Shown piece by piece: positions 7,706-59,031 of a stretch of DNA of 64,000 nucleotides. Numbering within the stretch: position 1 is the first letter of the stretch; every line of letters begins with the position of its first letter. The notes beneath the pieces are model-generated. The model searched no databases, had not been told where the DNA came from, and was given only the letters and a program-made list of their open reading frames with translations. Both the position numbers and the translations under genes were made by a program. Source of the stretch: Streptomyces sp. WP-1 (GTDB taxonomy: Bacteria > Actinomycetota > Actinomycetes > Streptomycetales > Streptomycetaceae); NCBI RefSeq assembly GCF_030450125.1, contig NZ_CP123923.1:5952001-6016000 (forward strand), written 5' to 3'.

Positions 7706-7726
7706 CCTGCCACTGTCGGTGGCAGG
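7706..7726. promoter_or_regulatory. perfect inverted repeat over the coaE promoter
   Basis: CCTGCCAC at 7706-7713, a five-base centre, and GTGGCAGG at 7719-7726 form perfect 8-bp arms. The repeat overlaps the conserved TGTCGGTG element of the coaE promoter. It could be an operator, or a weak terminator of the gene upstream, although no T-tract follows. Confidence 0.5.
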
Positions 7727-7735
7727 GCCTAAGCT
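7713..7735 (+). promoter_or_regulatory. DNA-damage (RecA-NDp/PafBC-type) promoter of coaE
   Basis: CTGTCGGTG at 7713-7721, eight bases, then TAAGCT at 7730-7735. This matches TTGTCRGTG-N8-TAnnnT except for the first base. Seven bases separate TAAGCT from the ATG at 7743, so the transcript should be leaderless. Confidence 0.7.
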
Positions 7736-7742
7736 TCCGCTC

Positions 7743-8369
7743 ATGCTGAAAGTTGGCCTGACCGGCGGGATCGGCGCCGGCAAGAGCGAGGTGTCCCGGC
7801 TGCTCGTGGAGCACGGAGCCGTGCTGATCGACGCGGACCGCATCGCGCGGGAGGTCGTGGCGCCCGGCACGCCCGGCCTCGCCGCCGTGGTCGAGGCGTT
7901 CGGACCCGACATCCTCGCCGAGGACGGCAGCCTGGACCGGCCCCGCCTCGGCTCGATCGTCTTCGCCGATCCGGACAGACTCGCGGTCCTCAACTCGATC
8001 GTGCACCCCCTGGTCGGCGCCCGCTCCCGCGAGCTGGAGGAGGCCGCGTCCCCCGACGCCGTGGTGATCCACGACGTGCCCCTGCTCACCGAGAACGGAC
8101 TGGCGCCGTTCTACGACCTCGTGATCGTCGTGGACGCGAGCCCCGAGACCCAGCTCGACCGGCTGATACGGCTGCGCGGGATGACCGAGGAGGACGCCCG
8201 CGCCCGCATGGCCGCCCAGGCCACCCGCGGGCAGCGGCACGCGATCGCGGACATCGTGATCGACAACGACGTCCCCCTGGATGCGCTGCGCAAGCGGGTC
8301 GACGCGGTCTGGGACGGCCTGGTGCGCCCGGCCCACACCGGCTCCGCAGCGGACCGGCCCGCGGAATAG
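7743..8369 (+). CDS. coaE: dephospho-CoA kinase
   Basis: Last step of coenzyme A synthesis: phosphorylates the 3'-hydroxyl of dephospho-CoA with ATP. The 208 residues begin [17 protein letters not shown], with Walker A GGIGAGKS at about 8-15. The [17 protein letters not shown] substrate loop and the [13 protein letters not shown] motif are typical of CoaE. I chose ATG 7743 over the upstream GTG 7719 because it places the P-loop at the normal distance and because a -10 hexamer lies 7 bases before it with no ribosome-binding site, the signature of a leaderless mRNA. A TPR gene follows 49 bases downstream and is probably co-transcribed. Confidence 0.95.
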
Positions 8370-8418
8370 CGGCCCGGGCAGGGGCGTTGAACCTCGGGAA
8401 CGAGGGAAGGACTCTGCC

Positions 8419-8799
8419 GTGCCCGAGACCAGCGGTTCCCCCGGACCCACTCCGGAGACGCATGTCATCGACTTCCGTGCCGCCGAGCAACTGCTCCACG
8501 CGCGGGATCCGCGGGGTGCGGTGAAGCTGCTCGACGGAGTCATCGCCGCGCACCCCGAGAACACCGCGGCCCGGCTGCTGCGCGCGCGTGCCTTCTTCGC
8601 CGCCGCGCAACTACGGCCCGCCGAGCTGGAATTCACCATCGTCCTGGAGCGGGAGCCGGACAACGCGTTCGCGCACTTCGCCCTGGCCCGCACCTACGAG
8701 CGCCAGGGCCGCGCCGACCAGGCCAAGCGCCACTTCCGGCTGGCCGCGGCGCTGGACCCGAACCCGGAGTATCTGAAGGCGGCCCGTTTCGACGGCTGA
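8419..8799 (+). CDS. TPR repeat protein
   Basis: A 126-residue soluble protein with about three tetratricopeptide repeats: HVIDFRAAEQLLHARDPRGAVKLLD, NTAARLLRARAFFAAAQLRPAELEF and AFAHFALARTYERQGRADQAKRHF. These carry the W/L/G/Y/A/F/A/P pattern of TPR helices. It is expected to be a protein-protein scaffold; the partner is unknown. The start is GTG 8419 with GAGGGAAGG eight bases upstream; longer in-frame extensions overlap coaE in another frame and are rejected. It follows coaE in the same direction with a 49-base gap, so it may share the damage-responsive coaE promoter. Confidence 0.85.
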   Translation: MPETSGSPGPTPETHVIDFRAAEQLLHARDPRGAVKLLDGVIAAHPENTAARLLRARAFFAAAQLRPAELEFTIVLEREPDNAFAHFALARTYERQGRADQAKRHFRLAAALDPNPEYLKAARFDG

Positions 8800-8825
8800 G
8801 GCCGTGGCCGTGCGGGGGGCGTCCG

Positions 8826-9155
8826 TCAGGGGTGCCGGTGGCGCGGCGGCCGGGGGCACGAGGGGCCGCGCCGCGACAGCCGGGGGGAGCGGGCCCCGTC
8901 GTCGTCCGGCGGCTGGTACGGCGGCACGTTCCGGCCCGGCTGGTAGTGCGGGCCCTGCCGGAGGTGCCGGACGATCAGGGCCAGGTCGGCGGTGACGATC
9001 AGCAGCAGCACTCCGCAGGCGATCGCCCAGCCGGGGCGCCCGACGAGCGCGAACACCGCCGTGCCGAAGACCGCCCAGACCAGCCCCCACACGCTCAGCC
9101 ACAACCGCGCCCGCAGAGCACTGCGCGCGGTCGCCGGTTCACTGCCCGTACGCAT
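8826..9155 (-). CDS. DUF6343 family small membrane protein
   Basis: A 109-residue protein with a short basic N-terminus (MRTGSEPATARSALRARLWL), two closely spaced hydrophobic segments (residues ~18-35 and ~41-62) and a Pro/Arg-rich cytoplasmic tail. The pattern matches the streptomycete DUF6343 family as I remember it. The function is unknown. The ATG at 9155 has AAGGAG at the proper distance (AAGGAGTGGTGATCCG). A much longer reading frame through 9809 has no ribosome-binding site and poor coding character, so I use the short form. It converges on the coaE-TPR unit. Confidence 0.75.
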   Translation of the reverse strand: MRTGSEPATARSALRARLWLSVWGLVWAVFGTAVFALVGRPGWAIACGVLLLIVTADLALIVRHLRQGPHYQPGRNVPPYQPPDDDGARSPRLSRRGPSCPRPPRHRHP

Positions 9156-9279
9156 CGGATCACCACTCCTTCTTGCAACGTACTCTCCGCCGCGCGTCCC
9201 CGCCCGACGGTGGATCGCTCGAACGGGTGAACTGTGATCGAACGGGAACGGGAGGGCGAGGACGGGCCGTTCTCCGGGC

Positions 9280-9480
9280 ATGACGGTCAAGACGCGTGAG
9301 GGATACGAGGGCACGGGCACGGGTGCGATCATCCCGGACGGCACCTGGACCCAGACCTTCCGCGCTCGTCCCCTGACGAAGGAACAGTTCGAAGCGGCGC
9401 TGGCGGAGGTGGGACTGGAGGCGGACAAGTACCTGACGCCGGACGGGACATGGGTACGGGCCGTGCGGACGCCCCGGTGA
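9280..9480 (+). CDS. small conserved-looking hypothetical protein
   Basis: A 66-residue soluble protein starting MTVKTREGYEG. It has a hydrophilic, beta-strand-like first half (TGAIIPDGTWTQTFRARPL) and a helix (TKEQFEAALAEVGLEADKYL) followed by a repeated TPDGTW motif, so the sequence PDGTW occurs twice. I do not recognise a named family. Codon use is normal for the genome, which supports a real gene. The ribosome-binding site is GGGCGAGGACGGG, somewhat distant. It stands alone between the divergent DUF6343 gene and the S4-domain gene. Confidence 0.6.
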   Translation: MTVKTREGYEGTGTGAIIPDGTWTQTFRARPLTKEQFEAALAEVGLEADKYLTPDGTWVRAVRTPR

Positions 9481-9622
9481 CCCGGTAAGCGCCAGGGGTA
9501 CGAGGTGAACGTGAGTGGGACGTGGTAACTGTCAGGGGGGCGCGGTGGGCGCGACGCGGACGCCGTGGCGGACGTCATGGCGGACGTCACGGACGGGGGA
9601 GGGGCGCGCCCGGTGTTGCCCG

Positions 9623-10255
9623 TCACCGGCCCCGGGGTCGTCCCTCCGGTCCGTTCATGTCGCTGCTGAATCCCGGCGGTGTGAGGCCGCGCAGACGTTC
9701 CATGTCCCGGCGGTCGCGCTTGGTGGGCCGGCCGGCGCCCCGGTCGCGGATCCCGACGGGGGCGACGGCCTCGCGGGGCGGCGGGGGAGGGGAGTTGTCG
9801 ATGTAGCACTGCACGGCCACGGGCGCGCCGACCCGCTTGCGGATGAGGCGCTTGACGATCACGATCCGCTCCCGCCCCTCGTTCCGCAGCCGGACCTCGT
9901 CGCCCACCCGCACCGAGTAGGCCGGCTTCACCCGCTCACCGTTCACACGCACATGACCACCACGGCAGGCGGTGGCGCCCTGGGACCGCGTCTTGATCAG
10001 ACGTACGGCCCAGATCCAGCTGTCGATCCGGACCGTCTCACCACCACCGGGACTTGCGGCCTCGGCAGCGGCGACCGCGGCGGCGACCTCGGGGTCCACG
10101 GCGGGGTTCACCGTGGCGCTCCCCGTGGGCCGCGCCCCGGGGTCCACCGGGCCGCCGGCCGAGGTACCGGCGTCCCCGGCGTCCTGGGCGGGTGCCGTCC
10201 CGGGCCGTCCCCCGGCGTCCCGGTTCACGTTCTCGTCCGCATCCTCGGAAGCCAT
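9623..10255 (-). CDS. S4-domain RNA-binding protein (Hsp15-like)
   Basis: A 210-residue protein with one S4 RNA-binding domain at about residues 75-130: VRIDSWIWAVRLIKTRSQG, then GGHVRVNGERVKPAYSVRVGDEVRLR. This resembles Hsp15/RqcH-partner proteins that bind structured rRNA or stalled 50S subunits. A basic segment GRPTKRDRRDMERLRG follows, typical of the family. The first ~70 residues are an acidic, Ala/Gly-rich, probably disordered extension not seen in E. coli Hsp15. Start ATG 10255. Transcribed alone. The RNA-binding call is strong; the exact cellular substrate is inferred. Confidence 0.85.
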   Translation of the reverse strand: MASEDADENVNRDAGGRPGTAPAQDAGDAGTSAGGPVDPGARPTGSATVNPAVDPEVAAAVAAAEAASPGGGETVRIDSWIWAVRLIKTRSQGATACRGGHVRVNGERVKPAYSVRVGDEVRLRNEGRERIVIVKRLIRKRVGAPVAVQCYIDNSPPPPPREAVAPVGIRDRGAGRPTKRDRRDMERLRGLTPPGFSSDMNGPEGRPRGR

Positions 10256-10335
10256 GTCCCGACCCTAACGCCACGGGCCGGACGACCTGGACAGGTTTTC
10301 CGGGGGGTGGCCCGAGGGCTCACGGAAAGGGGGGC

Positions 10336-10495
10336 GCCGCCCGGATCGGCGCGTAGACGGGAGCAGACAGGAAGGGGGTGCCGTCCGGGTCGGCGCGCAG
10401 ACAGGAGGGGGCGTCCGGGTCGGTGTGCGGAGGCCGGGATGGAGAGATCAGGGCGCGGGGAGAGGCCAGGCCGCAGGGAGAGGCCAGGACGGGGA
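10336..10495. repeat. degenerate tandem repeats upstream of the glycosylase gene
   Basis: Three diverged copies of a unit near GCCGTCCGGGTCGGCGCG followed by a [18 protein letters not shown] tail (about 10336-10433), then GGGAGAGGCCAGG twice (10457-10484). The 295-base gap between the S4 gene and the glycosylase gene holds nothing else recognisable apart from the promoter at its right end. Confidence 0.5.
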
Positions 10496-10538
10496 GAAAG
10501 GCGCCAGGCCGTGGGCATGGGCGGCGGCGACCTGGGCA

Positions 10539-10544
10539 TACGGT
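10539..10544 (+). promoter_or_regulatory. -10 element of a leaderless promoter for the glycosylase
   Basis: TACGGT lies six bases before the ATG at 10551 with no ribosome-binding site between them. The upstream TTGTCRGTG box of the damage promoters is absent here. Confidence 0.5.
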
Positions 10545-10550
10545 GACTCT

Positions 10551-11252
10551 ATGGACGACAGCAGCCCCCTTGCCCGGTTGGACCGGCGGGTCACGGGCTG
10601 CCGGGCCTGCCCCCGGCTGGTGGAGTGGCGCGAGGAGGTGGCGGCGACCAAGCGCGCCGCCTTCGCGGACTGGACGTACTGGGGCCGCCCGGTGCCCGGC
10701 TTCGGGCCCGCCGACGCCCGGCTGCTGATCATCGGCCTGGCCCCGGCCGCGCACGGCGGCAACCGCACCGGACGCATGTTCACCGGCGACCGCTCCGGCG
10801 ATGTGCTGTACCAGGCGCTGTACGACCTCGGTCTCGCCAACCGGCCCACCTCTCTCCACATCGACGACGGCCTGGAGCTGTACGGGCTCCGGGTCACCTC
10901 ACCCGTCCACTGCGCGCCGCCCGCCAACAAGCCGACTCCCGGCGAGCGCGACACCTGCCGCCCCTGGCTGGTCCAGGAGCTGAAACTGCTGCGCCCGACG
11001 CTGCGGGCCGTGGTGGTCCTCGGCGCCTTCGGCTGGCAGGCGGCACTGCCCGCGTTCACCGAGGCCGGCTGGACGGTGCCCCGCCCCCGTCCGCCCTTCG
11101 GCCACGGCACCCGCGTCGCGCTCGACGGCCTGGACCTCTTCGGCTGCTTCCATGTCAGCCAGCGCAACACCTTCACCGGCAAGCTCACGCCGGAGATGCT
11201 GCGCGAGGTACTGGGCACGGCGGCGCGAACGGCCGGGCTGCCGGTGCGCTGA
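10551..11252 (+). CDS. uracil-DNA glycosylase, family 5 (UdgB-like)
   Basis: A 233-residue glycosylase that should remove uracil and perhaps hypoxanthine from DNA, starting base-excision repair. Near the N-terminus CRACPRL (Cys 18 and 21) and, further on, HCAPPANKPTPGERDTCRPW supply the four cysteines of the [4Fe-4S] cluster of this family. The active-site motif A reads LLIIGLAPAAHGGNRTGRMF, and motif B HVSQRNTFTGKL carries the catalytic-loop histidine. GLAPA without an Asp after GL is the hallmark of family 5 as opposed to family 4. The start ATG 10551 is set by a -10 hexamer six bases upstream, implying a leaderless transcript. Monocistronic. Confidence 0.88.
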   Translation: MDDSSPLARLDRRVTGCRACPRLVEWREEVAATKRAAFADWTYWGRPVPGFGPADARLLIIGLAPAAHGGNRTGRMFTGDRSGDVLYQALYDLGLANRPTSLHIDDGLELYGLRVTSPVHCAPPANKPTPGERDTCRPWLVQELKLLRPTLRAVVVLGAFGWQAALPAFTEAGWTVPRPRPPFGHGTRVALDGLDLFGCFHVSQRNTFTGKLTPEMLREVLGTAARTAGLPVR

Positions 11253-11303
11253 ACCGCTCTCTCCGTCACCGGGCGCGCGCCGTGGTGAGCCGTTCCTCGG
11301 GGT

Positions 11304-11500
11304 TCAGGGCTGCCAGACGTACCGCACATCCGGCTCCCGCTCCTCGTTGCCGCTGCCGTCCGTGGACTCGGCGGCGAGGAAGCCGTGGCGTTCGTAGAAA
11401 CGGTGCGCGGCCCCGTTGACCTGGAAGGCCCACAGGGTCAGCCCCTCCGGACTGCGCTCCTTGGCCAGCGCGACGAACCGGTCCCCGAGCCCCCGCCCGG
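11304..11500 (-). pseudogene. GNAT acetyltransferase, C-terminal fragment
   Basis: Reading the minus strand from about 11500, an open frame gives GRGLGDRFVALAKERSPEGL, then TLWAFQVNGAAHRFYERHGF, and ends DVRYVWQP at the TGA at 11304-11306. This is the acetyl-CoA binding loop (QxxGxG-like) and motif B of a GNAT N-acetyltransferase. The first half of the domain is missing: immediately upstream the sequence switches to an unrelated fragment on the other strand. No start codon or ribosome-binding site exists for what remains. It is a truncated relic. Confidence 0.8.
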
Positions 11501-11853
11501 CCGGCTACCCGGAGCCGCTGCGTCGTACCGCCGCCGGGCACTGGGGTGGCACCGCCCGCGCCACCCTCGGCTACGCCAAGGCCAACCACGCGCCCTGGGG
11601 CCGACTGACCGAGACCGCGGGCGCCCTGCCACTGCGGCTGCCCAGGCGGCCGACGCGGTCCTCGCGGCTCGCGGCTCGCGGCGAGTGGATCACCAACGAG
11701 AAACGGCTGCTGGAGCGGGCCGGGCTGCGGGAGTTCGACGAGGTGGCGGGCCGGCTGCGGGCCACCCCCGACGCCCTGGTCGCGGCCGTCGCCAGGGCGG
11801 AGGAGATCGTCGCCGGGGCGCTGCCTGCGACTCGGCGGACATCGCCGTCGTAA
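11501..11853 (+). pseudogene. nucleotidyltransferase-like protein, C-terminal fragment with frameshifts
   Basis: The plus strand reads GYPEPLRRTAAGHWGGTARA, then TLGYAKANHAPWGRLTETAG, and later GEWITNEKRLLERAGLREFD to the stop at 11851. It resembles the C-terminal part of streptomycete nucleotidyltransferase-domain proteins as I remember them. The N-terminal catalytic half is absent. Between TETAG and GEWIT the frame is broken: a one-base loss near 11626 shifts to the frame reading ATAAAQAADAVLAARG, and a third copy of the 7-mer CTCGCGG (11661-11681) shifts it back. Two compensating frameshifts plus truncation mark it as dead. Confidence 0.75.
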
Positions 11854-11941
11854 ACCCACCGGAGAAAATCCCCGCCCGGGCGATGATTTCCGGGTCCGCC
11901 GCCGGTCACCACCTCGAACCGACCGTCGGACAGGAGGGCCC

Positions 11942-12586
11942 ATGTCGTCACCGGAGATCGTCTCGCGCGAGCAATGGCGTGCCGCGCGCGAGGAGTTGCG
12001 GCGCCGGGAGGAGTCGGTCAGGCGGGAGCGCGCGGCACTCGGCGCCGAGCGGCGACGGCTGCCCATGGTCGAGGTCGACCCCGGCTACCTCTTCGAGGGT
12101 GGCGACGGCAAGGCCACCCTCCTCGACCTCTTCGGGGGCCGTTCCCAACTCGTCGTCCACCATTTCATGTTCGCCCCCGACCGGACGACCGGCTGCCCGT
12201 GCTGCGCCGCCTTCCTGGACCAGGTCGGCCACCTCGCCCATCTGCGCGCCCGCGACACCTCGTTCGCCGCGGTCTCCCGGGCGCCGTTCACCCGCATCCT
12301 GCCGTTCAAGGCGCGGATGGGCTGGACGGTGCCCTGGTACTCCTCGTCCCCGGGGGACTTCAACGACGACTTCGAGGCGACCGTGCGGGACGGCGGGGAA
12401 CCGGTCGAGCGACCGGGCCTGAGCTGCTTCCTGCGCGAACACGACCGGGTCTTCCACACCTATTCGGTGTACGGCGCGGACCTGGACGAACTGGGCACCA
12501 CCGCCGCCCTCCTCGATCTGACCGCCCTCGGCCGCCGCGCCGTCGGCAGCGAGGGGCCGCGTCTGCACGACGAGTACGACTTCTGA
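11942..12586 (+). CDS. DUF899 family thioredoxin-like protein
   Basis: A 214-residue cytoplasmic protein of the DUF899 family, which has a thioredoxin/AhpC-like fold. Features are the charged N-terminal helix IVSREQWRAAREELRRREES, the start of the fold at YLFEGGDGKATLLDLFGGRS, and the signature HHFMFAPDRTTGCPCCAAFLDQ with a CPCC centre. It continues with MGWTVPWYSSSPGDFNDDFE and a C-terminal HDEYDF. The reaction is not known; a redox role is suggested by the fold and the CxCC cysteines. ATG 11942 follows GGAGGGCCC. Its upstream gap contains only the end of the fragment described before it. Confidence 0.85.
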   Translation: MSSPEIVSREQWRAAREELRRREESVRRERAALGAERRRLPMVEVDPGYLFEGGDGKATLLDLFGGRSQLVVHHFMFAPDRTTGCPCCAAFLDQVGHLAHLRARDTSFAAVSRAPFTRILPFKARMGWTVPWYSSSPGDFNDDFEATVRDGGEPVERPGLSCFLREHDRVFHTYSVYGADLDELGTTAALLDLTALGRRAVGSEGPRLHDEYDF

Positions 12587-12787
12587 CCCGCGGACGGTTT
12601 CGACCCAGACGGTTCTGCCCCGGGCGGTTCTGAACACGGACGGCACGCTTTGTGTCGATCGGTGACCGAATCGTCATGATCTGCACCGGAATCGTGTCAT
12701 CCATGTCTCAGTCGGGTCACCGGGCGAGGCGTTCGGCCCCTCCAGCGCGTTGACTCCAGAAAGGACGACGCTTTGTGGAGGTGCGCG

Positions 12788-12964: not shown

Positions 12965-13008
12965 GGCCGTGCGGCGACAGCGGGCCTTGCGTCGCGGTGA
13001 CGGTGGGT

Positions 13009-14441: not shown

Positions 14442-14472
14442 TATCGCCCCGCCGCGGACACTTGGCAAGGGT

Positions 14473-24899: not shown

Positions 24900-25454
24900 T
24901 CAGAACAGCGGCTGGGGAAGCACACCCTCCAGGGCGAGCAACTGTCGCTTGGTCTCCAGTCCGCCCCCGAAACCCCCGATCCCGCCGTCGCTCTCGACCA
25001 CCCGGTGGCACGGCACGACCACCGGCAGCGGATTGGCGCCCATCGCCACACCGACCGCCTGCGCCGCGCCGGGCTGCCCGACCCGGCCCGCGAGATCGCC
25101 GTACCCCACCACGCTGCCGTACGGCACCCCGGACGCCAGCTCCCGCAGCACCTGCCGGTTGAACCCGGAGATCAGCGACCAGTCCAGCGGCAGCTCGAAG
25201 TCCTGCCGCTCACCCGCGAAATACGCCCGCAGCTGGCGTATCGCCTCGACCAGCACCGGCGCCCGCGGATCCGCCACGGGCGGGCTGCCGAACCGGGCCG
25301 CCAGCCGCTCCAGCGTCCGCTCGCGCACCGCGTCGGTGGCGTGGAAGACCACGTTGACCAGTCCGTTCCTGGTCGCCGCCAGCATCAGCGGGCCGATGTC
25401 GGTCTCGACGAGGGCCCACACCACCCGCTGCTCGTCCTGCCCATGGCTGTCCAT
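24900..25454 (-). CDS. ogt: methylated-DNA--protein-cysteine S-methyltransferase
   Basis: A 184-residue suicide DNA-repair protein that moves the alkyl group from O6-alkylguanine to its own cysteine. The active site PCHRVV puts the acceptor cysteine at residue 149. Upstream are the DNA-binding helix-turn-helix stretch VPYGSVVGYGDLAGRVGQPG and AQAVGVAMGANPLPVVV, and downstream GGFGGGLETKRQLLALEG. Its promoter is a perfect copy of the damage-responsive element shared with the uvr genes, with the -10 hexamer six bases before the ATG. This means a leaderless, damage-induced transcript. It stands alone. Confidence 0.95.
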   Translation of the reverse strand: MDSHGQDEQRVVWALVETDIGPLMLAATRNGLVNVVFHATDAVRERTLERLAARFGSPPVADPRAPVLVEAIRQLRAYFAGERQDFELPLDWSLISGFNRQVLRELASGVPYGSVVGYGDLAGRVGQPGAAQAVGVAMGANPLPVVVPCHRVVESDGGIGGFGGGLETKRQLLALEGVLPQPLF

Positions 25455-25460
25455 GCGCCC

Positions 25461-25483
25461 ACGGTACGACCCACCACTGACAA
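25461..25483 (-). promoter_or_regulatory. DNA-damage (RecA-NDp/PafBC-type) promoter of ogt
   Basis: On the minus strand TTGTCAGTG (25483-25475), eight bases, TACCGT (25466-25461). It is an exact match to TTGTCRGTG-N8-TAnnnT. Six bases separate it from the ATG at 25454. Confidence 0.85.
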
Positions 25484-27605: not shown

Positions 27606-27628
27606 TTGTCAGTGGGGGGTCGTACGGT
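27606..27628 (+). promoter_or_regulatory. DNA-damage (RecA-NDp/PafBC-type) promoter of uvrB
   Basis: TTGTCAGTG at 27606-27614, eight bases, TACGGT at 27623-27628: an exact match to the consensus. Seven bases separate it from the ATG at 27636, so uvrB mRNA should be leaderless. Confidence 0.88.
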
Positions 27629-27635: not shown

Positions 27636-29783
27636 ATGCGGCCCGTTTCCCACATCGAACGCACGGTGGCGCCCATCGAGGTCGTCAGTCCCTACCAGCC
27701 CAGCGGCGACCAGCCGACGGCCATCGCCGACCTGGCCAAGCGCGTCAAGGCCGGCGAGAAGGACGTCGTCCTGCTGGGCGCGACCGGCACCGGCAAGTCC
27801 GCCACCACCGCGTGGATGATCGAGAAGCTCCAGCGCCCCACCCTGGTGATGGCGCCGAACAAGACACTGGCCGCCCAGCTGGCCAACGAGTTCCGCGAGC
27901 TCCTCCCGAACAACGCGGTCGAATACTTCGTCTCGTACTACGACTACTACCAGCCCGAGGCGTACGTCCCGCAGTCGGACACGTACATCGAGAAGGACTC
28001 CTCGATCAACGAGGAGGTCGAGCGGCTGCGCCACTCGGCGACCAACTCGCTGCTCACCCGCCGTGACGTCGTCGTGGTCGCCTCCGTGTCCTGCATCTAC
28101 GGCCTGGGCACCCCGCAGGAATACGTGGACCGCATGGTCCCCCTCCGAGTCGGTGACGAGATCGACCGGGACGACCTGCTGCGCCGCTTCGTCGACATCC
28201 AGTACACGCGCAACGACCTGGCCTTCACCCGCGGCACCTTCCGCGTCCGCGGCGACACCATCGAGATCTTCCCGGTCTACGAGGAGCTCGCCGTCCGCAT
28301 CGAGATGTTCGGCGACGAGATCGAGGCGTTGTCCACCCTCCACCCGCTCACCGGCGAGATCATCAGCGACGACCAGCAGCTGTACGTCTTCCCGGCCTCC
28401 CACTATGTCGCCGGCCCCGAGCGCATGGAGCGGGCCGTCAACGACATCGAGAAGGAGCTGGGCGAGCGCCTGGCCGAGCTGGAGAAGCAGGGCAAGCTCC
28501 TGGAGGCCCAGCGCCTGCGGATGCGCACCACCTACGACATCGAGATGCTCCGCCAGATCGGCACCTGCTCCGGCGTGGAGAACTACTCGATGCACTTCGA
28601 CGGCCGCCTGCCCGGCTCCCCGCCCAACACCCTGCTCGACTACTTCCCGGACGACTTCCTGCTCGTCATCGACGAGTCGCACGTCACCGTCCCGCAGATC
28701 GGCGCGATGTACGAGGGCGACGCCTCCCGCAAGCGCACCCTCGTGGAGCACGGCTTCCGCCTGCCCTCCGCCCTGGACAACCGGCCCCTGAAGTGGGAGG
28801 AGTTCCAGGAGCGCATCGGGCAGACCGTCTACCTGTCCGCGACCCCGGGAAACTACGAGCTGTCGCGCTCCGACGGCGTCGTCGAGCAGATCATCCGCCC
28901 GACCGGCCTGGTCGACCCCGAGGTCGTGGTCAAGCCCACCGAGGGCCAGATCGACGACCTGGTGCACGAGATCCGCAAGCGCACCGACAAGGACGAGCGC
29001 GTCCTGGTCACCACGCTCACCAAGAAGATGGCCGAGGACCTCACCGACTACTTCCTGGAACTGGGCATCCAGGTGCGCTATCTGCACAGCGACGTCGACA
29101 CCCTGCGCCGCGTGGAACTGCTGCGCGAACTGCGCGCCGGTGAGTACGACGTCCTGGTCGGCATCAACCTGCTGCGTGAGGGTCTCGACCTGCCCGAGGT
29201 CTCCCTGGTGGCGATCCTCGACGCCGACAAGGAGGGCTTCCTGCGCTCCGGCACCTCGCTGATCCAGACCATCGGCCGCGCGGCGCGCAATGTCTCCGGC
29301 CAGGTCCATATGTACGCCGACAAGATCACCCCGGCGATGGAGCGGGCCATCGACGAGACCAATCGCCGCCGCGAGAAGCAGATCGCCTACAACAAGGCAA
29401 AGGGCATCGACCCGCAGCCGCTGCGCAAGAAGATCAACGACATCGTCGCGCAGATCGCCCGCGAGGAGGTCGACACCGAGCAGCTCCTCGGCAGCGGCTA
29501 CCGCAAGTCGAAGGACGGCAAGGGCGCCAAGGCCCCCGTGCCCGCGCTGAGCGACAAGGCGGTCAAGGGCGGCAAGGCAGTCAAGGGCGCGAAGGGCAAG
29601 GCCGCGGCCACGGTACCCACGGACCGTCCGGCGGCCGAACTCGCCGAACAGATCGAGGAGATGACCGAGCGCATGCGCGCCGCCGCCGCGGAGCTCCAGT
29701 TCGAGATCGCGGCCCGGCTGCGCGACGAGGTCTCGGAGATGAAGAAGGAGCTGCGCCAGATGCGGGAGGCGGGCATCGCCTGA
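27636..29783 (+). CDS. uvrB: excinuclease ABC subunit B
   Basis: A 715-residue damage-verification helicase of nucleotide-excision repair. Walker A is [15 protein letters not shown] (~50), the beta-hairpin region is [20 protein letters not shown], motif II is [18 protein letters not shown], and the later helicase motifs include [20 protein letters not shown] and [13 protein letters not shown]. The C-terminal UVR domain ([20 protein letters not shown], then [18 protein letters not shown]) binds UvrC. A Lys/Ala/Gly-rich linker of about 60 residues precedes it. ATG 27636 is fixed by the leaderless promoter geometry; it follows the MHYT gene by 40 bases. Confidence 0.98.
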
Positions 29784-29938
29784 TCCGCGCGACACCGCCG
29801 GACCTCGGCATACGCGCCGAGTGTTGCAACACCGACACAAAGCGCGGACCGGGGTGCGGCGGTGTCCGTGCCCCTGCGTAGGGTTCTGACCAGCCGCGCG
29901 GCCTGCGGCACAGGGGACTTCCGAGAGGGGATTCAGCC

Positions 29939-30517
29939 GTGTCCGTCAACTTGAGCAAGGGTCAGGCCATCAGCCTGGAGAAGAACGACGGGGGCACCCT
30001 CACCGCGGTCCGTATGGGGCTGGGCTGGCAGGCGGCCAAGCGCCGCGGTCTGTTCGGCTCGCGCACCAAGGAGATCGACCTGGACGCCTCCGCGGTGCTC
30101 TTCGCCGAGAAGCAGCCGGTCGACGTCGTCTTCTTCCGGCACCTGGTGAGCGACGACGGATCGGTGCGCCACACCGGCGACAACCTGGTCGGCGGCGTCG
30201 GCCAGGGCGGCGACGACGAGGCGATCCTCGTGGACCTCCAGCGCGTCCCGGTCCACATCGACCAGATCGTCTTCACCGTGAACTCCTTCACGGGCCAGAC
30301 CTTCCAAGAGGTGGAGAACGCGTTCTGCCGCCTGGTGGACGAGTCCAACGGCCAGGAACTCGCCCGCTACACGCTGGCCGGCGGCGGCGAGTACACCGCC
30401 CAGATCATGGCCAAGGTGCACCGCGCGGGCCCGGGCTGGACGATGACCGCCCTCGGTAGCGCCGCCAACGGGCGCACCTTCCAGGACCTGATGCCGGCGA
30501 TCCTGCCGCACCTGTAG
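29939..30517 (+). CDS. TerD family stress protein
   Basis: A 192-residue protein of the TerD/CABP family, linked to tellurite resistance and general stress and known to bind calcium. It starts VSVNLSKGQAISLEKNDGGT, the family opening, and carries KEIDLDASAVLFAEKQPVDV, VVFFRHLVSDDGSVRHTGDN and the acidic loop GGDDEAILVDL. It continues IVFTVNSFTGQTFQEVENAF and RVHRAGPGWTM-like C-terminal strands. GTG 29939 is preceded by GAGAGGGG. It heads a same-strand run with a TerD fusion and TerC. A TAGGGT at about 29878 may be its -10. Confidence 0.92.
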   Translation: MSVNLSKGQAISLEKNDGGTLTAVRMGLGWQAAKRRGLFGSRTKEIDLDASAVLFAEKQPVDVVFFRHLVSDDGSVRHTGDNLVGGVGQGGDDEAILVDLQRVPVHIDQIVFTVNSFTGQTFQEVENAFCRLVDESNGQELARYTLAGGGEYTAQIMAKVHRAGPGWTMTALGSAANGRTFQDLMPAILPHL

Positions 30518-41445: not shown

Positions 41446-41468
41446 TTGTCAGTGGCTCCCCCTAGTGT
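41446..41468 (+). promoter_or_regulatory. DNA-damage (RecA-NDp/PafBC-type) promoter of uvrA
   Basis: TTGTCAGTG at 41446-41454, eight bases, TAGTGT at 41463-41468: an exact consensus match. The start codon is about 50 bases further, so this copy makes a leadered mRNA, unlike uvrB and uvrC. Confidence 0.88.
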
Positions 41469-41524: not shown

Positions 41525-44590
<3,066 letters not shown>

Positions 44591-48751: not shown

Positions 48752-48774
48752 GTGTCGGTGCTCGCCAGTAGGGT
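48752..48774 (+). promoter_or_regulatory. DNA-damage (RecA-NDp/PafBC-type) promoter of uvrC
   Basis: GTGTCGGTG at 48752-48760, eight bases, TAGGGT at 48769-48774; only the first base departs from TTGTCRGTG. Seven bases then lead to the ATG at 48782, so the uvrC operon mRNA should be leaderless. Confidence 0.78.
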
Positions 48775-48781
48775 GTGAGAC

Positions 48782-51373
48782 ATGGCCGATCCCTCCAGCT
48801 ACCGCCCCAGGCCGGGTGAGATCCCGGACACCCCCGGGGTGTACAGGTTCCGTGACGAGCACCGCCGGGTGATCTACGTCGGAAAGGCGAAAAGCCTCCG
48901 CCAGCGCCTGGCGAACTACTTCCAGGACCTGGCGAACCTGCACCCGCGCACCCGGACGATGGTGACCACCGCCGCGTCCGTGGAGTGGACCGTGGTGTCC
49001 ACCGAGGTCGAGGCACTGCAGCTGGAGTACTCCTGGATCAAGGAGTACGACCCCCGGTTCAACGTCAAGTACCGCGACGACAAGAGCTACCCGTACCTCG
49101 CGGTGACGATGAACGAGGAGTTCCCGCGCGTCCAGGTGATGCGCGGTCACAAGAAGAAGGGCGTGCGGTACTTCGGGCCCTACGGACACGCCTGGGCCAT
49201 CCGGGACACCGTCGACCTGCTGCTGCGGGTCTTCCCGGTGCGCACCTGCTCGGCGGGCGTGTTCAAGAACGCCGCCCGCACCGGCCGCCCCTGCCTGCTC
49301 GGCTACATCGGCAAGTGCTCCGCCCCCTGCGTCGGCCGGATCAGCCCCGAGGACCACCGGGACCTGGCCGACGAGTTCTGCGACTTCATGGCCGGCCGCA
49401 CCGGCACCTACCTCCGCCGCCTGGAGAAGCAGATGACGGAGGCGGCCGAGGACATGGAGTACGAGCGGGCCGCCCGGCTGCGCGACGACATCGGGGCCCT
49501 GAAGAAGGCCATGGAGAAGAGCGCGGTCGTGCTCGCCGACGCGACCGACGCCGATCTCATCGCGGTCGCCGAGGACGAACTGGAGGCGGCCGTGCAGATC
49601 TTCCATGTGCGCGGCGGCCGGGTGCGCGGCCAGCGCGGCTGGGTGACCGACAAGGTCGAGGAGATCACGACCGGCGCCCTGGTCGAGCACGCCCTTCAGC
49701 AGCTGTACGGCGAGGAGACCGGGGACGCCGTGCCCAAGGAGGTGCTGGTCCCGGCGCTGCCCGAGCCGGTCGAGCCGGTCCAGGAGTGGCTGACCGGCCG
49801 CCGCGGGTCGATCGTGTCGCTGCGCATCCCGCAGCGCGGCGACAAGAAGGCGCTGATGGAGACCGTGCAGCGCAACGCCCAGCAGGCGCTCGCCCTGCAC
49901 AAGACCAAGCGCGCCTCCGACCTCACCACCCGTTCGCGCGCCCTGGAGGAGATCGCCGACGCCCTCGACCTGGACAGCGCCCCGCTGCGCATCGAGTGCT
50001 ACGACATCTCGCACCTCCAGGGGGACGACGTGGTCGCCTCCATGGTCGTCTTCGAGGACGGCCTCCAGCGCAAGGGCGAGTACCGCCGCTTCCAGATCAA
50101 GGGCTTCGCCGGCCAGGACGACGTCCGCTCCATGCACGAGGTGATCACCCGCCGCTTCAAGCGGTACCTCGCCGACAAGGAGCGGACGGGGGAGTGGGCC
50201 GACGGCGAGGAGCCGGGCACCGACGGCGAGGCCGTGCTCACGGACGGGGGAGCCGCGCCCGCCGAGGCCGGGATCACCCCGTCGGAGGAGACGACAGCCC
50301 CCGCGAACGCCGAGGTCCCGCCCACGGGCGAGGCCCCCGCGCCCGCCGACGCCGGGGCCACCCCCACCGACGCCGGCACCGCACCGGAAGACGCCCCGGC
50401 CACGCCCACCGGCACCGCGCCCCCACTGACTCCCGTCAGCGCAGGAAACGGGGCCCCCGCCAGCGCGGGACCCGGAGCCCCCCTCAGCGAGGGCCCCGGC
50501 GCCCCCGCCGCTCCGGAACCCGGCGCTCCGGCCACCCCGGCATCCGGAGCCCCCGCCGCCACGGAACCCGGCGCTCCGGCCACCCCGGCATCCGGAGCCC
50601 CCGCCGCCACGGAACCCGGCGCTCTGGCCACCCCGGCATCCGACGTCCCCGCCGACACGGCGTCCCGCGCCCCCGCCGCCCCGAGATCCGCCCCACGACC
50701 CGCCGTCCCCCTCACCCCCAGCGGCCCCGACCCGCTCGACGACCCCCTCGCCGTCCCTCTCAACGGTTCCCTCAAGGACGACGACGGTCGGCCCCGGAAG
50801 TTCGCCTATCCGCCCCAGCTGGTCGTGGTCGACGGTGGTCAGCCGCAGGTCGCGGCGGCCCGGCGGGCGCTGGACGAACTGGGGATCGACGACATCGCGG
50901 TGTGCGGCCTGGCCAAGCGGCTGGAGGAGGTCTGGCTGCCCGGCGAGGACGACCCCGTGGTGCTGCCCCGCACCAGCGAAGGTCTGTATCTGCTCCAGCG
51001 CGTCCGGGACGAGGCGCACCGGTTCGCGATCACCTACCAGCGCACCAAGCGCGCCAAGCGCTTCCGCGCCGGCCCCCTGGACGACGTCCCCGGCCTCGGC
51101 GAGACGAGGAAACAGGCGCTCATCAAGCATTTCGGCTCGGTGAAGCGGCTGCGGTCCGCCACAATCGAACAGATCCAGGAAGTGCCCGGGATAGGCCGCA
51201 AGACGGCCGAGACCATCGCCGCGGCCCTCGCCCAGGCGGCCCCGGCCGCACCCGCCGTGAACACGGCGACCGGAGAGATCATGGAAGACGAGGAACCCGA
51301 GACGACGGCGGGTCCCTCAGGGGAGCCCGTGACCGCGGGCCCCTCGGACGAACGACGGGGGCAGGAGACATGA
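48782..51373 (+). CDS. uvrC: excinuclease ABC subunit C with a large low-complexity insertion
   Basis: An 863-residue dual-incision nuclease of excision repair. The GIY-YIG domain is at the start ([20 protein letters not shown]), the UVR helix is [20 protein letters not shown], the RNase H-like endonuclease begins [20 protein letters not shown], and the C-terminus has two helix-hairpin-helix motifs ([39 protein letters not shown]). Between residues ~475 and ~665 a Pro/Ala/Thr/Gly-rich insertion splits the endonuclease domain between its two Asp-containing strands (YDISH and VVDGGQPQ). This makes the protein about 200 residues longer than typical UvrC. rapZ overlaps its stop. Confidence 0.96.
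50521..50664 (+). repeat. 48-bp coding tandem repeat inside uvrC
   Basis: Two perfect 48-bp units (50521-50568, 50569-50616) and a third diverged one (50617-50664) encode [16 protein letters not shown] repeats. The in-frame unit length allows copy-number change without frameshift. Confidence 0.85.
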
Positions 51374-53486: not shown

Positions 53487-54466
53487 CGGCAGCGGTGAAG
53501 GACGAGATCTCCCGGCTCCCCGTCACCCGGACCTGCTGCAGGAAGGCGGAGGTCTCCGCCATTCTGCGGTTCGCCGGCGGCCTGCATCTGGTGAGCGGGC
53601 GCATCGTGATCGAGGCGGAGCTGGACACGGCGATGGCGGCCCGCCGCCTCAAACGGGACATCCTGGAGATCTTCGGCCACAGCTCGGAGCTGATCGTGAT
53701 GGCCCCCGGCGGACTGCGCCGCGGCTCGCGCTATGTCGTCCGGGTCGTCGCGGGCGGGGACCAACTCGCCCGGCAGACCGGCCTGGTGGACGGCCGGGGC
53801 CGGCCGATCCGCGGGCTTCCCCCGCAGGTGGTCTCGGGGGCCACCTGTGACGCGGAGGCGGCCTGGCGCGGGGCGTTCCTCGCGCACGGCTCGCTGACCG
53901 AGCCCGGCCGCTCCTCCTCCCTGGAGGTGACCTGCCCGGGTCCGGAGGCCGCGCTGGCACTGGTCGGCGCCGCCCGCCGGCTGTCGATCGCCGCCAAGGC
54001 CCGGGAGGTGCGCGGGGTGGACCGCGTGGTCGTCCGGGACGGTGATGCGATCGGCGCGCTGTTGACGCGGCTCGGCGCGCACGAGTCGGTGCTGGCCTGG
54101 GAGGAGCGGCGGATGCGCCGCGAGGTGCGGGCCACGGCCAACCGGCTCGCCAACTTCGACGACGCGAACCTGCGGCGTTCGGCCCGCGCGGCGGTGGCCG
54201 CGGGGGCGCGGGTGCAGCGCGCGCTGGAGATCCTGGGCGAGGAGGTGCCCGAGCACCTCGCCGCGGCCGGACGGCTGCGCATGGAGCACAAGCAGGCCTC
54301 GCTGGAGGAGCTGGGCGCGCTCGCCGACCCGCCGCTGACCAAGGACGCGGTCGCGGGCCGGATCCGCCGGCTGCTGGCCATGGCCGACAAGCGCGCCTCG
54401 GATCTGGGCATCCCGGGCACCGAGGCCAATCTGTCGGAGGAGCTGGCGGACAACCTGGTCGGCTGA
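53477..54466 (+). CDS. whiA: sporulation transcription regulator WhiA
   Basis: A 329-residue developmental regulator that works with WhiB to stop aerial growth and start sporulation septation. It joins a degenerate LAGLIDADG homing-endonuclease fold ([40 protein letters not shown]) to a C-terminal helix-turn-helix of the sigma-4 type ([37 protein letters not shown]). [14 protein letters not shown] is the normal N-terminus. ATG 53477 lies inside the end of yvcK. Besides its own signals it could be reached from the damage-type promoter of uvrC, three genes upstream. Confidence 0.97.
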
Positions 54467-54506
54467 CCCGACCCGACCCGACCCGACCCGACACCGACAC
54501 CGACAC
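54467..54506. repeat. short microsatellite after whiA
   Basis: Five tandem GACCC units followed by three CGACAC-type units directly after the whiA stop codon. Probably slippage-prone; no function is apparent. Confidence 0.75.
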
Positions 54507-54507
54507 G

Positions 54508-54549
54508 CCGGTGCCGAACCCCGTTCGAGGGGATTCGGCACCGGCTTTT
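54508..54549 (+). terminator. terminator of the uvrC-whiA operon
   Basis: GCCGGTGCCGAACCCC and GGGGATTCGGCACCGGC form a long stem with one bulged A around a GTTCGA loop, followed by TTTTG. Confidence 0.88.
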
Positions 54550-55897
<1,348 letters not shown>

Positions 55898-56042
55898 TCG
55901 CCGAAGACCGCAGCAGCACGACCGTGACATGAGAGCAGGGCTCGGCCAGCGCACCGTCGCGCTGACCGGGCCCTGTCTCACGCACGGATCACGTCCTCAT
56001 ACGATCAAGGTGCACCACGAGCCCTCCTCAGGAGTCCACTCA

Positions 56043-57254
56043 ATGAAGACGATCGACGAACTTCTCGCCGACGGCGTAAGCGGCAAGCGGGTCTTCGTCC
56101 GCGCCGACCTCAATGTGCCGCTGGCCGACGGGACGATCACCGACGACGGCCGCATCCGCGCCGTGCTGCCCACCGTCAAGGCGCTCGCCGAAGCGGGCGC
56201 CAAGGTGATCGTCGCCTCGCACCTGGGCCGCCCCAAGGGCGCCCCGGAGCCCGCCTTCTCGCTGCTGCCCGCCGCCGAGCGCCTCGGTGAACTGCTCGGC
56301 GCCCCGGTCGCCTTCGCCGAGGACACGGTCGGCCCCGCCGCCCACGACGCCGTCGACGGCCTTCAGCCCGGCCAGGTCGCCGTCATCGAGAACCTGCGTT
56401 TCAACCCCGGCGAGACCGCCAAGGACGACGCCGAGCGCGGCGAGTTCGCGGACCGGCTGGCCGCCCTCGCCGATGTGTACGTGGGCGACGGCTTCGGCGC
56501 CGTGCACCGCAAGCACGCCTCCGTCTACGACCTCCCGGCCCGGCTGCCGCACTACGCCGGCCACCTCATCGCCACCGAGGTCGGCGTCCTGAAGAAGCTC
56601 ACCGAGGAGGTCGAGCGCCCCTACGTCGTCGCGCTCGGCGGTGCCAAGGTCTCCGACAAGCTCGCCGTCATCGACCAGCTGCTCGGCAAGGCCGACCGGC
56701 TGCTCATCGGCGGCGGCATGGCCTACACCTTCCTCAAGGCCAAGGGCTACGAGGTCGGCATCTCCCTCCTCCAGGAGGACCAGATCCCGGCCGTCACCGA
56801 GTACATGGAGCGCGCCGAGAAGCTCGGCGTGGAACTGCTGCTCCCCGTCGACGTCCTGGTCTCCCGGGAGTTCCCGGACCTGAAGACCAAGGCGCCGAGC
56901 CAGTACAACACCGTCGACGCGGACAAGATCCCCGCCGACCAGGAGGGCCTGGACATCGGCCCGAAGACCCGGGAGCTGTACGCCTCGAAGCTCGCCGACG
57001 CCCGGACCGTGTTCTGGAACGGCCCCATGGGCGTCTTCGAGCACCCGGACTACGCCGAGGGCACCAAGGCGGTCGCCCGGGCGCTCGTAGACTCGAACGG
57101 TTTCACCGTCGTCGGCGGCGGTGACTCCGCCGCGGCCGTGCGCACGCTCGGCTTCGACGAGAACGCATTCGGCCACATCTCGACCGGCGGCGGCGCCTCC
57201 CTCGAATACCTCGAGGGCAAGACGCTTCCCGGTCTCGCCGCACTGGAGGACTGA
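56043..57254 (+). CDS. pgk: phosphoglycerate kinase
   Basis: A 403-residue two-domain kinase making ATP from 1,3-bisphosphoglycerate. Motifs are KRVFVRADLNVPLADGTITD (substrate Asp/Asn), VIVASHLGRPKGAPEP, VIENLRFNPGETAKD, YVVALGGAKVSDKLAVIDQL, the nucleotide loop FWNGPMGVFEHPDYAEGTKA and the terminal GGGDSAAAV with STGGGASLEYLEGKTLPG. The ATG at 56043 follows AGGAGTCCACTCA. The 145-base gap after gap may carry an internal promoter. tpiA begins six bases after its stop, so they are co-transcribed. Confidence 0.98.
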   Translation: MKTIDELLADGVSGKRVFVRADLNVPLADGTITDDGRIRAVLPTVKALAEAGAKVIVASHLGRPKGAPEPAFSLLPAAERLGELLGAPVAFAEDTVGPAAHDAVDGLQPGQVAVIENLRFNPGETAKDDAERGEFADRLAALADVYVGDGFGAVHRKHASVYDLPARLPHYAGHLIATEVGVLKKLTEEVERPYVVALGGAKVSDKLAVIDQLLGKADRLLIGGGMAYTFLKAKGYEVGISLLQEDQIPAVTEYMERAEKLGVELLLPVDVLVSREFPDLKTKAPSQYNTVDADKIPADQEGLDIGPKTRELYASKLADARTVFWNGPMGVFEHPDYAEGTKAVARALVDSNGFTVVGGGDSAAAVRTLGFDENAFGHISTGGGASLEYLEGKTLPGLAALED

Positions 57255-57260
57255 CCCCGT

Positions 57261-58037
<777 letters not shown>

Positions 58038-58085
58038 CGGAGCGGCCGCACCGTCCATGAGTAGGCGGTAGCCGCGATACGTCGT

Positions 58086-58122
58086 ACTCTTGCGGGGGCA
58101 CGGCCCAGGAGCTGTGCCCCCG
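58086..58122 (+). promoter_or_regulatory. secG -10 element and leader hairpin
   Basis: TACTCT at 58086-58091 is a likely -10. Right after it GGGGGCAC (58095-58102) and GTGCCCCC (58115-58122) form an 8-bp hairpin that would sit at the 5' end of the secG mRNA, or act as a weak tpiA terminator. Confidence 0.45.
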
Positions 58123-58156
58123 TCGTCCATCCGATTCCGAGGAAGTTGGTCCAGCC

Positions 58157-58393
58157 GTGGTTTTGGGGTTCTCGATCGCCCTGATCGTCTTCAGCCTGCT
58201 GCTGATGCTGCTGGTGCTGATGCACAAGGGGAAGGGCGGCGGCCTCTCCGACATGTTCGGTGGCGGCATGCAGTCCTCCGTCGGCGGCTCCTCGGTCGCC
58301 GAGCGCAACCTCGACCGGATCACCGTCGTGATCGGCGTGCTGTGGATCGCGTGCATCGTGGTCCTCGGCATCCTGATGAAGACGAACAGCTGA
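58157..58393 (+). CDS. secG: preprotein translocase subunit SecG
   Basis: A 78-residue membrane protein, the small accessory subunit of the SecYEG export channel. It has two transmembrane helices, FSIALIVFSLLLMLLVLMHK and ITVVIGVLWIACIVVLGILM, joined by the conserved loop GKGGGLSDMFGGGMQSS. This two-helix layout with a GGGLSxxFGG loop is diagnostic. The start is GTG 58157 behind GAGGAAGTTGG. It follows tpiA by 119 bases, a common order in actinobacteria. Confidence 0.95.
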   Translation: MVLGFSIALIVFSLLLMLLVLMHKGKGGGLSDMFGGGMQSSVGGSSVAERNLDRITVVIGVLWIACIVVLGILMKTNS

Positions 58394-58531
58394 TCCCGGC
58401 CTTCCAGGCACACTCATTCCGTACGTTGAGCCCCATGTTCGGTACGCGCTCCCGAGCGCGGCCTATCATGGGGCTTGCGTCTGGGTGCGGGGGCGGTAAC
58501 TCCCATCACTGGACGCGCGTTGGGCCTTACG

Positions 58532-58576
58532 TAGACTGAGGCGCTCGCAGCGAAGCGGTACGCCGACTCGCTTCGC
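58532..58576 (+). promoter_or_regulatory. possible promoter and leader stem of the RbpA-family gene
   Basis: TAGACT at 58532-58537 with TGGACG 16 bases upstream is a possible promoter. In the leader GCGAAGCG (58550-58557) and CGCTTCGC (58569-58576) make a perfect 8-bp stem with an 11-base loop. Confidence 0.4.
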
Positions 58577-58603
58577 GGCACCATCACGCAGGGAGTTACG
58601 ACC

Positions 58604-58939
58604 GTGGCAAGTGGCAACGCGATCCGAGGAAGCCGGGTCGGGGCGGGGCCGATGGGCGAGGCCGAGCGCGGCGAGTCCGCACCGCGGCTGCGCATCTCCT
58701 TCTGGTGCTCCAACGGGCACGAGACCCAGCCGAGCTTCGCCAGCGACGCACAGGTCCCCGACACCTGGGACTGCCCGCGCTGTGGCTTTCCGGCCGGCCA
58801 GGACCGGGACAACCCGCCGGACCCGCCGCGCACCGAGCCGTACAAGACGCACCTCGCGTATGTACGGGAGCGGCGCAGCGACGCGGACGGCGAGGCGATC
58901 CTCGCCGAGGCACTCGCCAAACTGCGCGGCGAGATCTAG
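58604..58939 (+). CDS. RbpA-family RNA polymerase-binding protein (RbpB-type paralogue)
   Basis: A 111-residue protein of the RbpA family, actinobacterial RNA-polymerase partners that stabilise the housekeeping sigma factor. It has the family layout NAIRGSRVGAG (core-binding tail), a zinc-ribbon-like strand region with CSNGHE and CPRCGFPAG, and a C-terminal sigma-interaction helix YVRERRSDADGEAILAEALA. From memory, canonical RbpA begins SERALRGTRLV; this protein differs there and in having CPRCG, so it is more likely the second copy (RbpB) found near secG/pgi. GTG 58604 follows AGGGAG. A strong terminator follows. Confidence 0.82.
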   Translation: MASGNAIRGSRVGAGPMGEAERGESAPRLRISFWCSNGHETQPSFASDAQVPDTWDCPRCGFPAGQDRDNPPDPPRTEPYKTHLAYVRERRSDADGEAILAEALAKLRGEI

Positions 58940-58949
58940 ACGTTGAGGC

Positions 58950-58979
58950 CCGGCCAGGCACCCTCGGGTGCCTGGCCGG
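58950..58979 (+). terminator. terminator of the RbpA-family gene
   Basis: CCGGCCAGGCACCC and GGGTGCCTGGCCGG are perfect 14-bp arms with a minimal loop, starting 11 bases after the stop codon. No T-run, as is common in Streptomyces. Confidence 0.8.
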
Positions 58980-59008
58980 AGCCGTATCCGCCGCTCGCTC
59001 CCGGTCGA

Positions 59009-59031
59009 TTGTCAGTGGCACCCTCTACGGT
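59009..59031 (+). promoter_or_regulatory. DNA-damage (RecA-NDp/PafBC-type) promoter of a small membrane protein
   Basis: TTGTCAGTG at 59009-59017, eight bases, TACGGT at 59026-59031: an exact consensus match, as good as at uvrA and uvrB. It predicts a short leader before the GTG at 59064. Confidence 0.82.

Follow-up and report, generated by a model that had tools for sequence, protein, structure and literature searches.

Promoters of the RecA-NDp type have been described at the recA gene of Streptomyces rimosus and in Mycobacterium tuberculosis (cited in PMC2375139 and PMC8223512), and the mycobacterial consensus is given as tTGTCRgtg-8 nt-TannnT (quoted in PMC5656591), with a -26 motif in the mycobacterial PafBC complex (PMC11804915). 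For Streptomyces, the SIGffRid study reported 67 S. coelicolor genes with RecA-NDp motifs (PMC2375139, 2008), SCO6735 is described as ultraviolet-inducible from a RecA-NDp-type promoter (PMC5087735, PMC9411070), and 5'-end data from S. lividans define a TGTC-N12-TANNNT class that is enriched in DNA replication and repair genes (PMC6742748). Here we examine this motif in a stretch of 64,000 nucleotides (nt), referred to as the window, which covers positions 5952001-6016000 of the chromosome of Streptomyces sp. WP-1 (a single contig of 7.6 Mb), and follow it across the chromosome and related genomes. The best overall explanation, to which we assign a probability of roughly 85%, is that the sites are RecA-NDp-type promoters that would be controlled by PafBC and induced by DNA damage. 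This type of regulon is well supported by the enrichment of the motif across the genome, the presence of a pafB-pafC pair in the Pup-proteasome locus, and the conservation of sites among relatives.

The window was searched with the motif TTGTCRGTG-N8-TAnnnT and with its 22-base core, which lacks the first base, and 100 dinucleotide shuffles of the window served as the null model. The scan recovered all six sites of the original prediction at the positions and on the strands given there, including the division into four exact copies and two that differ at the first base only (C before coaE, G before uvrC). The sites and the genes behind them are as follows.

7713-7735, plus strand: RecA-NDp-type promoter of coaE (CTGTCGGTG-N8-TAAGCT; one mismatch, first base C)
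7743-8369, plus strand: coaE, dephospho-CoA kinase (PF01121); ATG 7 nt past the -10 element
24900-25454, minus strand: ogt, O6-methylguanine-DNA methyltransferase (PF01035, PF02870); leaderless geometry
25461-25483, minus strand: RecA-NDp-type promoter of ogt, exact
27606-27628, plus strand: RecA-NDp-type promoter of uvrB, exact
27636-29783, plus strand: uvrB (UvrB_inter, PF17757); ATG start, leaderless geometry
41446-41468, plus strand: RecA-NDp-type promoter of uvrA, exact
41525-44590, plus strand: uvrA (PF17760, PF17755); leadered, GTG 56 nt past the -10 element
48752-48774, plus strand: RecA-NDp-like promoter of uvrC (GTGTCGGTG-N8-TAGGGT; one mismatch, first base G)
48782-51373, plus strand: uvrC (PF08459, PF22920, PF01541); ATG start, leaderless geometry
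59009-59031, plus strand: RecA-NDp-type promoter of a shortened major facilitator superfamily (MFS) gene, exact
59064-59441, plus strand: membrane protein of 125 amino acids, an internally shortened MFS transporter by sequence match to relatives

The full motif occurs four times in exact form in the window and not once in the 100 shuffles, which bears out the claim that the pattern is rare by chance; the core with at most one mismatch was found seven times, against a shuffle mean of 0.39 and a maximum of 2. Each of the six sites was also correctly said to stand upstream of a start codon and in the right direction: the distance from the end of the -10 element to the start codon is 7 nt for coaE, 6 for ogt, 7 for uvrB, 7 for uvrC, 56 for uvrA, and 32 for the membrane gene, a range of 6-56 nt. 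Searches of the 64-kb window for tRNAs and Rfam families returned no match.

Distribution of the motif in the genome

Extending the scan to the chromosome gave 29 exact copies of the motif and 96 sites with at most one mismatch, while the reversed pattern gave 5. Apart from the window's coaE and uvrC sites, the 96 comprise 94 sites that were inspected in loci of roughly 3-4 kb, and genes were called with a home-made codon model. A same-strand downstream gene was found at 85 of the 96 sites and at every one of the 29 exact sites, so the outcome that would have counted against the original prediction, matches no more frequent before genes than elsewhere, was not observed; by the same gene calls, 13 of the 96 sites lie deep inside a predicted gene. 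The 67 sites with one mismatch deviate at the first T of the -10 element (32), at the first base of the motif (23), or elsewhere (12), and at none of them is the R position occupied by C or T. The possibility that the sites whose -10 element begins with C, G, or A constitute a separate repeat was rejected because their start codons are spaced as in the exact class (6-7 nt in 17 of 32, compared with 13 of 29) and because repair genes lie downstream of them, with dinB, lhr, a polA-type gene, holA, and fpg/nei among the genes they precede. The seven of these 32 sites that lack a downstream gene are probably chance occurrences.

The 85 downstream proteins, some of them cut off at the end of a locus, were scanned against Pfam, and by our reading of the results about 31 function in DNA replication, recombination, or repair. 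These include RecA and two UvrD-type helicases, whose genes had been proposed earlier as ones to look for among the targets, together with RadA, UvrA, UvrB, UvrC, Ogt, an AlkZ-like glycosylase, RuvC, RarA, uracil-DNA glycosylase (ung), Fpg/Nei, an HhH-GPD glycosylase, RecG, RecQ, XseA, a DinG-like helicase, Lhr, PriA, DinB, a polymerase I-type (polA-type) polymerase, DnaB, DnaE, DnaX, HolA, a GyrA/ParC-type subunit, a RecB-like nuclease, and an RNase T-type exonuclease; an HHH-domain protein and a DEAD helicase are less certain members. The names RadA and DinG were assigned from domain sets and sequence rather than from a model of that name. Because a common control sequence fronts many DNA-repair genes, these genes would probably be induced as a group when DNA is damaged, independently of the classical SOS repressor. 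The other 54 of the 85 proteins are metabolic, transport, regulatory, or unknown, and some of the sites before them will be due to chance. Column profiles from 40 bases before to 14 bases after the motif, computed for 84 of the 96 sites (12 inside genes were omitted), showed conservation of TGTCRGTG, the purine that precedes it, and the -10 element only, with no conserved -35-like element in the 40 upstream bases.

The position of the start codon is also distinctive. An ATG or GTG lies 6-7 nt past the -10 element at 48 of the 96 sites, while other pairs of offsets average 6.2 with a maximum of 11, and about half of the promoters accordingly look leaderless. Among sites with a TA-type -10 element, 26 of 52 have the 6/7-nt start; applying a rule of TAnnnT plus a 6/7-nt start to other genes gave 4 of 52 in the window and 25 of 184 in other loci of the genome (29 of 236 in total), a difference with a Fisher p of about 1e-8 between two rules that are close and not identical. 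Mapped transcript starts place the share of leaderless genes at about 20-21% in S. lividans and S. coelicolor (PMC6742748), and the enrichment seen here is an estimate because the rule is cruder than mapped ends. When transcription is taken to begin at the leaderless position, the centre of TGTCRGTG falls near -26, in agreement with the mycobacterial PafBC complex (PMC11804915). A GTG also stands 7 nt past the -10 element before recA; it may be a chance occurrence because extra residues would be joined to RecA. In the portions of the literature considered, no published tie of PafBC to leaderless genes was met.

Several motif-bearing genes fall in less familiar surroundings. Two uncharacterised clusters (L227, G000 3303500-3323400, and L229, G000 6886000-6900000) encode proteins with MoxR-type AAA ATPase, DUF5682, and VWA_CoxE domains. 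In the first, a one-mismatch site marks the start of the ATPase gene, and divergent from this gene is a SWIM-domain gene that has an exact site and is followed by a DUF5691 gene; in the second, the cluster comes after a DUF4132 gene that carries an exact site. A WGR-domain gene (L001) has an exact site as well. These genes, which resemble the yeh/molR genes of Escherichia coli, may be a damage-response system; among the publications listed for MoxR/DUF5682/DUF4132 clusters, no tie to DNA damage was seen.

Conservation and standing of the individual sites

Individual sites were compared across 18 Streptomyces, a count that includes strain WP-1. The uvrB site is present in 17 of these, and in the 18th the motif recurs with a spacer of 7 nt; outside the genus, a version with one or two mismatches occupies the equivalent position in 11 of 12 genomes. 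The ogt site was found in 15 of 18 Streptomyces and, with at most one mismatch, in 0 of 12 genomes outside the genus, and the uvrA site is exact in 7 of 9 testable relatives. The site before the MFS gene is exact in all 5 relatives with a matched gene, 25 of the 31 genomes having no match to the short query. On this basis uvrB, ogt, and uvrA are the firm members in the window, and the MFS-gene promoter is intact.

The gene behind this last promoter differs from its earlier description as a small membrane protein: it is a membrane gene with an exact site, as stated, but its product is an internally shortened MFS transporter. The 125 amino acids match two separated pieces of open frames of about 420-425 amino acids in relatives, with both ends of the transporter kept and the middle missing. 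One relative's copy, read in frame (422 amino acids, L196), is of MFS type, its best NCBIfam matches being transporter families, all below their cut-offs, and the longer copies in relatives sit behind an equivalent promoter. The shortened product is probably not a working transporter.

The original prediction treated the six genes as equal members, which does not hold for coaE and is doubtful for uvrC. The coaE site was found in 5 of 18 Streptomyces and in 0 of 12 genomes outside the genus, and equal membership for this gene was rejected, the site being absent from most relatives. Five of the 13 Streptomyces that lack it were inspected, and in these five the leaderless -10 element is kept and TGTCRGTG is missing; judged by these comparisons, the coaE site is a lineage-restricted -26 element on a leaderless -10 that relatives retain. 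For uvrC, the best 80 named relatives (79 Streptomyces and one Kitasatospora) were compared. TGTC and the -10 element are invariant in all 80 while the RGTG half drifts, so that the element occurs with at most one mismatch in 18 of these best 80 relatives and with at most two in 48; in a second, smaller set, 7 of 12 have at most one mismatch. Within window positions 48752-48785, the uvrC core promoter, which runs from one base ahead of the -10 element to the ATG, is nearly invariant in the best 80 relatives. Taken as sequence comparisons, these patterns class uvrC and coaE as weak or recent members and suggest that the upstream element can be acquired or lost by members while the -10 stays in place, in keeping with the sigma-adaptation mechanism set out below.

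The seventh core match in the window, absent from the original list, lies at 29863-29884 (TGTCCGTG), 54 nt upstream of a TerD-family gene.

29862-29884, plus strand: weak seventh site (GTGTCCGTG-N8-TAGGGT) that departs from the full motif at two bases
29939-30517, plus strand: TerD-domain protein (PF02342)

It looks like a weakened ancestral site because 7 of 17 Streptomyces relatives carry a one-mismatch version at this position.

The candidate regulator and competing explanations

A search for pafBC, likewise suggested with the original prediction, identified two adjacent WYL proteins at 6319481-6321489 that are relatives of PafB and PafC. Each matches its M. smegmatis counterpart in the RNA polymerase-PafBC complex (7p5x) over the whole length, with E values of 5e-53 for PafB and 1.4e-50 for PafC. 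The genes lie in a Pup-proteasome locus, downstream of pafA, dop, pup, prcB, prcA, and a proteasome ATPase gene, all of which score above their NCBIfam cut-offs. The stretch FxRMFERDK is common to this PafB and that of M. smegmatis; a structural study of the Arthrobacter protein describes two conserved arginines in the PafB recognition helix (PMC6789036), and we read this stretch as the one likely to hold them. The locus is bordered on both sides by motif-bearing genes (G000 6303681 and 6323865), one for a RecB-like nuclease with a one-mismatch site and one for a DEAD helicase with an exact site.

By homology to the mycobacterial system, DNA damage would generate single-stranded DNA, which would bind the WYL domains of the PafB-PafC heterodimer. 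PafBC would then insert itself between the promoter DNA and domain 4 of the sigma factor in the housekeeping (HrdB) RNA polymerase. In place of a -35 box, PafB would read TGTCRGTG, about 26 bp ahead of the point where the transcript begins, and sigma would read a -10 element of the form (T/C/G)AnnnT. The six sites would in this mechanism be sigma-adapted promoters, and we infer that the regulon is under PafBC control.

The co-occurrence of motif and PafB was also compared among genomes. Within a class sample of 197 genomes, an exact copy of the motif was found in 145, as against 18 with the reversed pattern (a count made by eye), and all 16 Streptomyces of the sample, which include WP-1 and may not include S. 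venezuelae, have 10-40 exact copies, with 0-1 for the control. A PafB relative (E <=1e-25) is encoded in 185 of the 197. When the sample is restricted to a completeness of at least 90% and a contamination of at most 5%, the exact motif occurs in 127 of 168 genomes with PafB, leaving 41 with PafB and no exact copy, and in 1 of 5 without PafB, counts that lean in the right direction and are uncorrected for kinship. In a phylum sample from beyond the class, an exact copy occurs in 37 of 181 genomes, about twice the 17 of the reversed control (counted by eye), nearly all of them with one or two copies, and 89 of 181 encode a PafB-like protein (E <=1e-15). Few motifs alongside that many proteins imply either that the Streptomyces form of the motif hardly extends beyond the class or that those PafB-like proteins are other WYL regulators. 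The motif has multiplied in one genus (f70/g179), with 63 exact copies in G335 and 119 in G355. Of ten stretches examined from G335 (L217-L224), six have an identical copy of the motif with a similar GC-rich sequence after it, and two others come close to these. The G335 copies appear to form a family of intergenic repeats that includes the promoter motif.

A number of observations weigh against a PafBC regulon of this kind. There are 11 sites among the 96 that have no downstream gene, neither PafB nor PafC has an NCBIfam match at E 1e-10, and an exact copy is missing from 45 of the 185 class genomes that encode a PafB relative, which means that the presence of one does not strictly imply the other. 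The patchy coaE and uvrC counts given above point the same way. From the literature, PMC9380542 reports that the M. smegmatis PafBC motif was seemingly not conserved in S. venezuelae in an initial search and that (as of 2022) a LexA-independent response in that species remains to be shown, and in S. lividans the promoters with a 12-nt spacer were called hrdB-independent, with an extracytoplasmic function (ECF) sigma factor proposed for them (PMC6742748).

This last proposal, in which the motif marks promoters read by an ECF sigma factor of the SCO4895/SLIV_13900 type that itself directs RNA polymerase to repair genes, draws on the lack of a 12-nt peak among promoters of the S. lividans HrdB regulon and on the co-expression of the ECF sigma gene with repair genes (PMC6742748). 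Here, too, an ECF sigma gene (L007; Sigma70_r2, r4_2, and SnoaL domains) has an exact site. Because the site lies before it, however, this gene is more likely a target, and its identity as the SCO4895 counterpart is putative. The -10 form TAnnnT is that of bulk Streptomyces promoters, and in mycobacteria the equivalent motif was assigned to PafBC by in vivo binding, with PafB and PafC relatives also present here; we consider an ECF promoter unlikely. Recognition of the motif by a ClgR-type regulator instead of PafBC would follow from a mycobacterial study in which ClgR recognises a RecA-independent promoter motif (cited in PMC5656591), but later mycobacterial work assigned the motif to PafBC on the basis of in vivo binding and structure, and we regard this as the most improbable of the explanations weighed.

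The remaining explanation is that these are SOS genes repressed by LexA, with the motif secondary, and its best evidence comes from recA and uvrA. The recA gene (L004) has an exact RecA-NDp site and, 113 bp upstream, an SOS box (TCGAACATCCATTC) that matches the one reported for S. venezuelae recA exactly. A LexA-box-like sequence (TCGAATGCGCGTGC) also precedes uvrA, a gene that LexA binds in S. venezuelae (PMC9380542).

41359-41374, plus strand: LexA-box-like sequence upstream of uvrA (TCGAATGCGCGTGCTA); 9 of 12 consensus letters, a score reached by controls too

The best LexA-box scores in the window are 10 of 12 for coaE, 9 for uvrA, 9 for uvrB, and 7 each for ogt, uvrC, and the MFS gene, those of coaE and uvrB falling within 200 bp; of these matches, only that of uvrA is backed by retention in relatives, a similar stretch being kept in two relatives without the uvrA RecA-NDp site. 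Across the genome, however, LexA-box-like matches with at least 9 of 12 letters occur at 19 of 85 sites and at 19 of 85 controls placed 400-700 bp downstream, and the scores at ogt and uvrC are low. Repression by LexA as the principal control is therefore very unlikely, with recA and possibly uvrA as exceptions that would also carry a LexA box. The assignment of the sites to the LexA-independent RecA-NDp/PafBC type is well supported as regards the type of regulon, whereas "LexA-independent" may be incomplete for uvrA because of the LexA-box-like sequence there.

A broader reading builds on the PafBC assignment, namely a damage regulon of about 80 PafBC promoters, about half of them leaderless, that spreads through the gain of TGTCRGTG on leaderless housekeeping -10 elements, with coaE caught early and uvrC drifting, and that includes the MoxR-DUF5682-VWA-SWIM clusters and the WGR protein as new damage-response systems. 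We offer it tentatively, at a little short of even odds.

Relation to described systems

The motif and a Streptomyces regulon for it are already in print, and the papers differ on the regulator. The present analysis joins three separate published statements, those on the S. coelicolor motif regulon, the S. lividans TGTC promoters with 12-nt spacing, and the PafBC motif in S. venezuelae, to sites that have the PafBC geometry and are placed before repair genes. As far as we have seen, this joining is new, as are the grading of the six members, the identity of the sixth gene, and the leaderless bias. A second repair switch that acts independently of LexA has practical relevance for antibiotic producers whose compounds damage DNA.

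The SIGffRid set of S. coelicolor has the same motif, and its dinP, priA, radA, dinG, recQ, ung, uvrB, dnaE, and polymerase I gene have counterparts or family members here, whereas its dnaN and recF were not met among the 85 downstream genes. The excerpts of the Streptomyces RecA-NDp literature name no regulator for the S. coelicolor set and do not mention PafBC, and site-by-site conservation and leaderless geometry are added here. The S. lividans class has the same geometry, TGTC-N12-TANNNT being TGTC(RGTG-N8)TAnnnT, but was attributed to an ECF sigma factor. The Streptomyces LexA SOS regulon overlaps at recA and probably uvrA and differs in its box and in acting by repression rather than activation. 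The mycobacterial PafBC regulon resembles the one described here in its consensus, in overlapping gene classes, in the position of PafB-PafC beside the Pup-proteasome genes, and in the double control of recA and probably uvrA. It differs in that the present case concerns another genus, that about half of the promoters here have leaderless geometry, that the first -10 base may also be C or G, that the uvrC and coaE elements are patchily kept, and that the regulator here is a candidate by homology.

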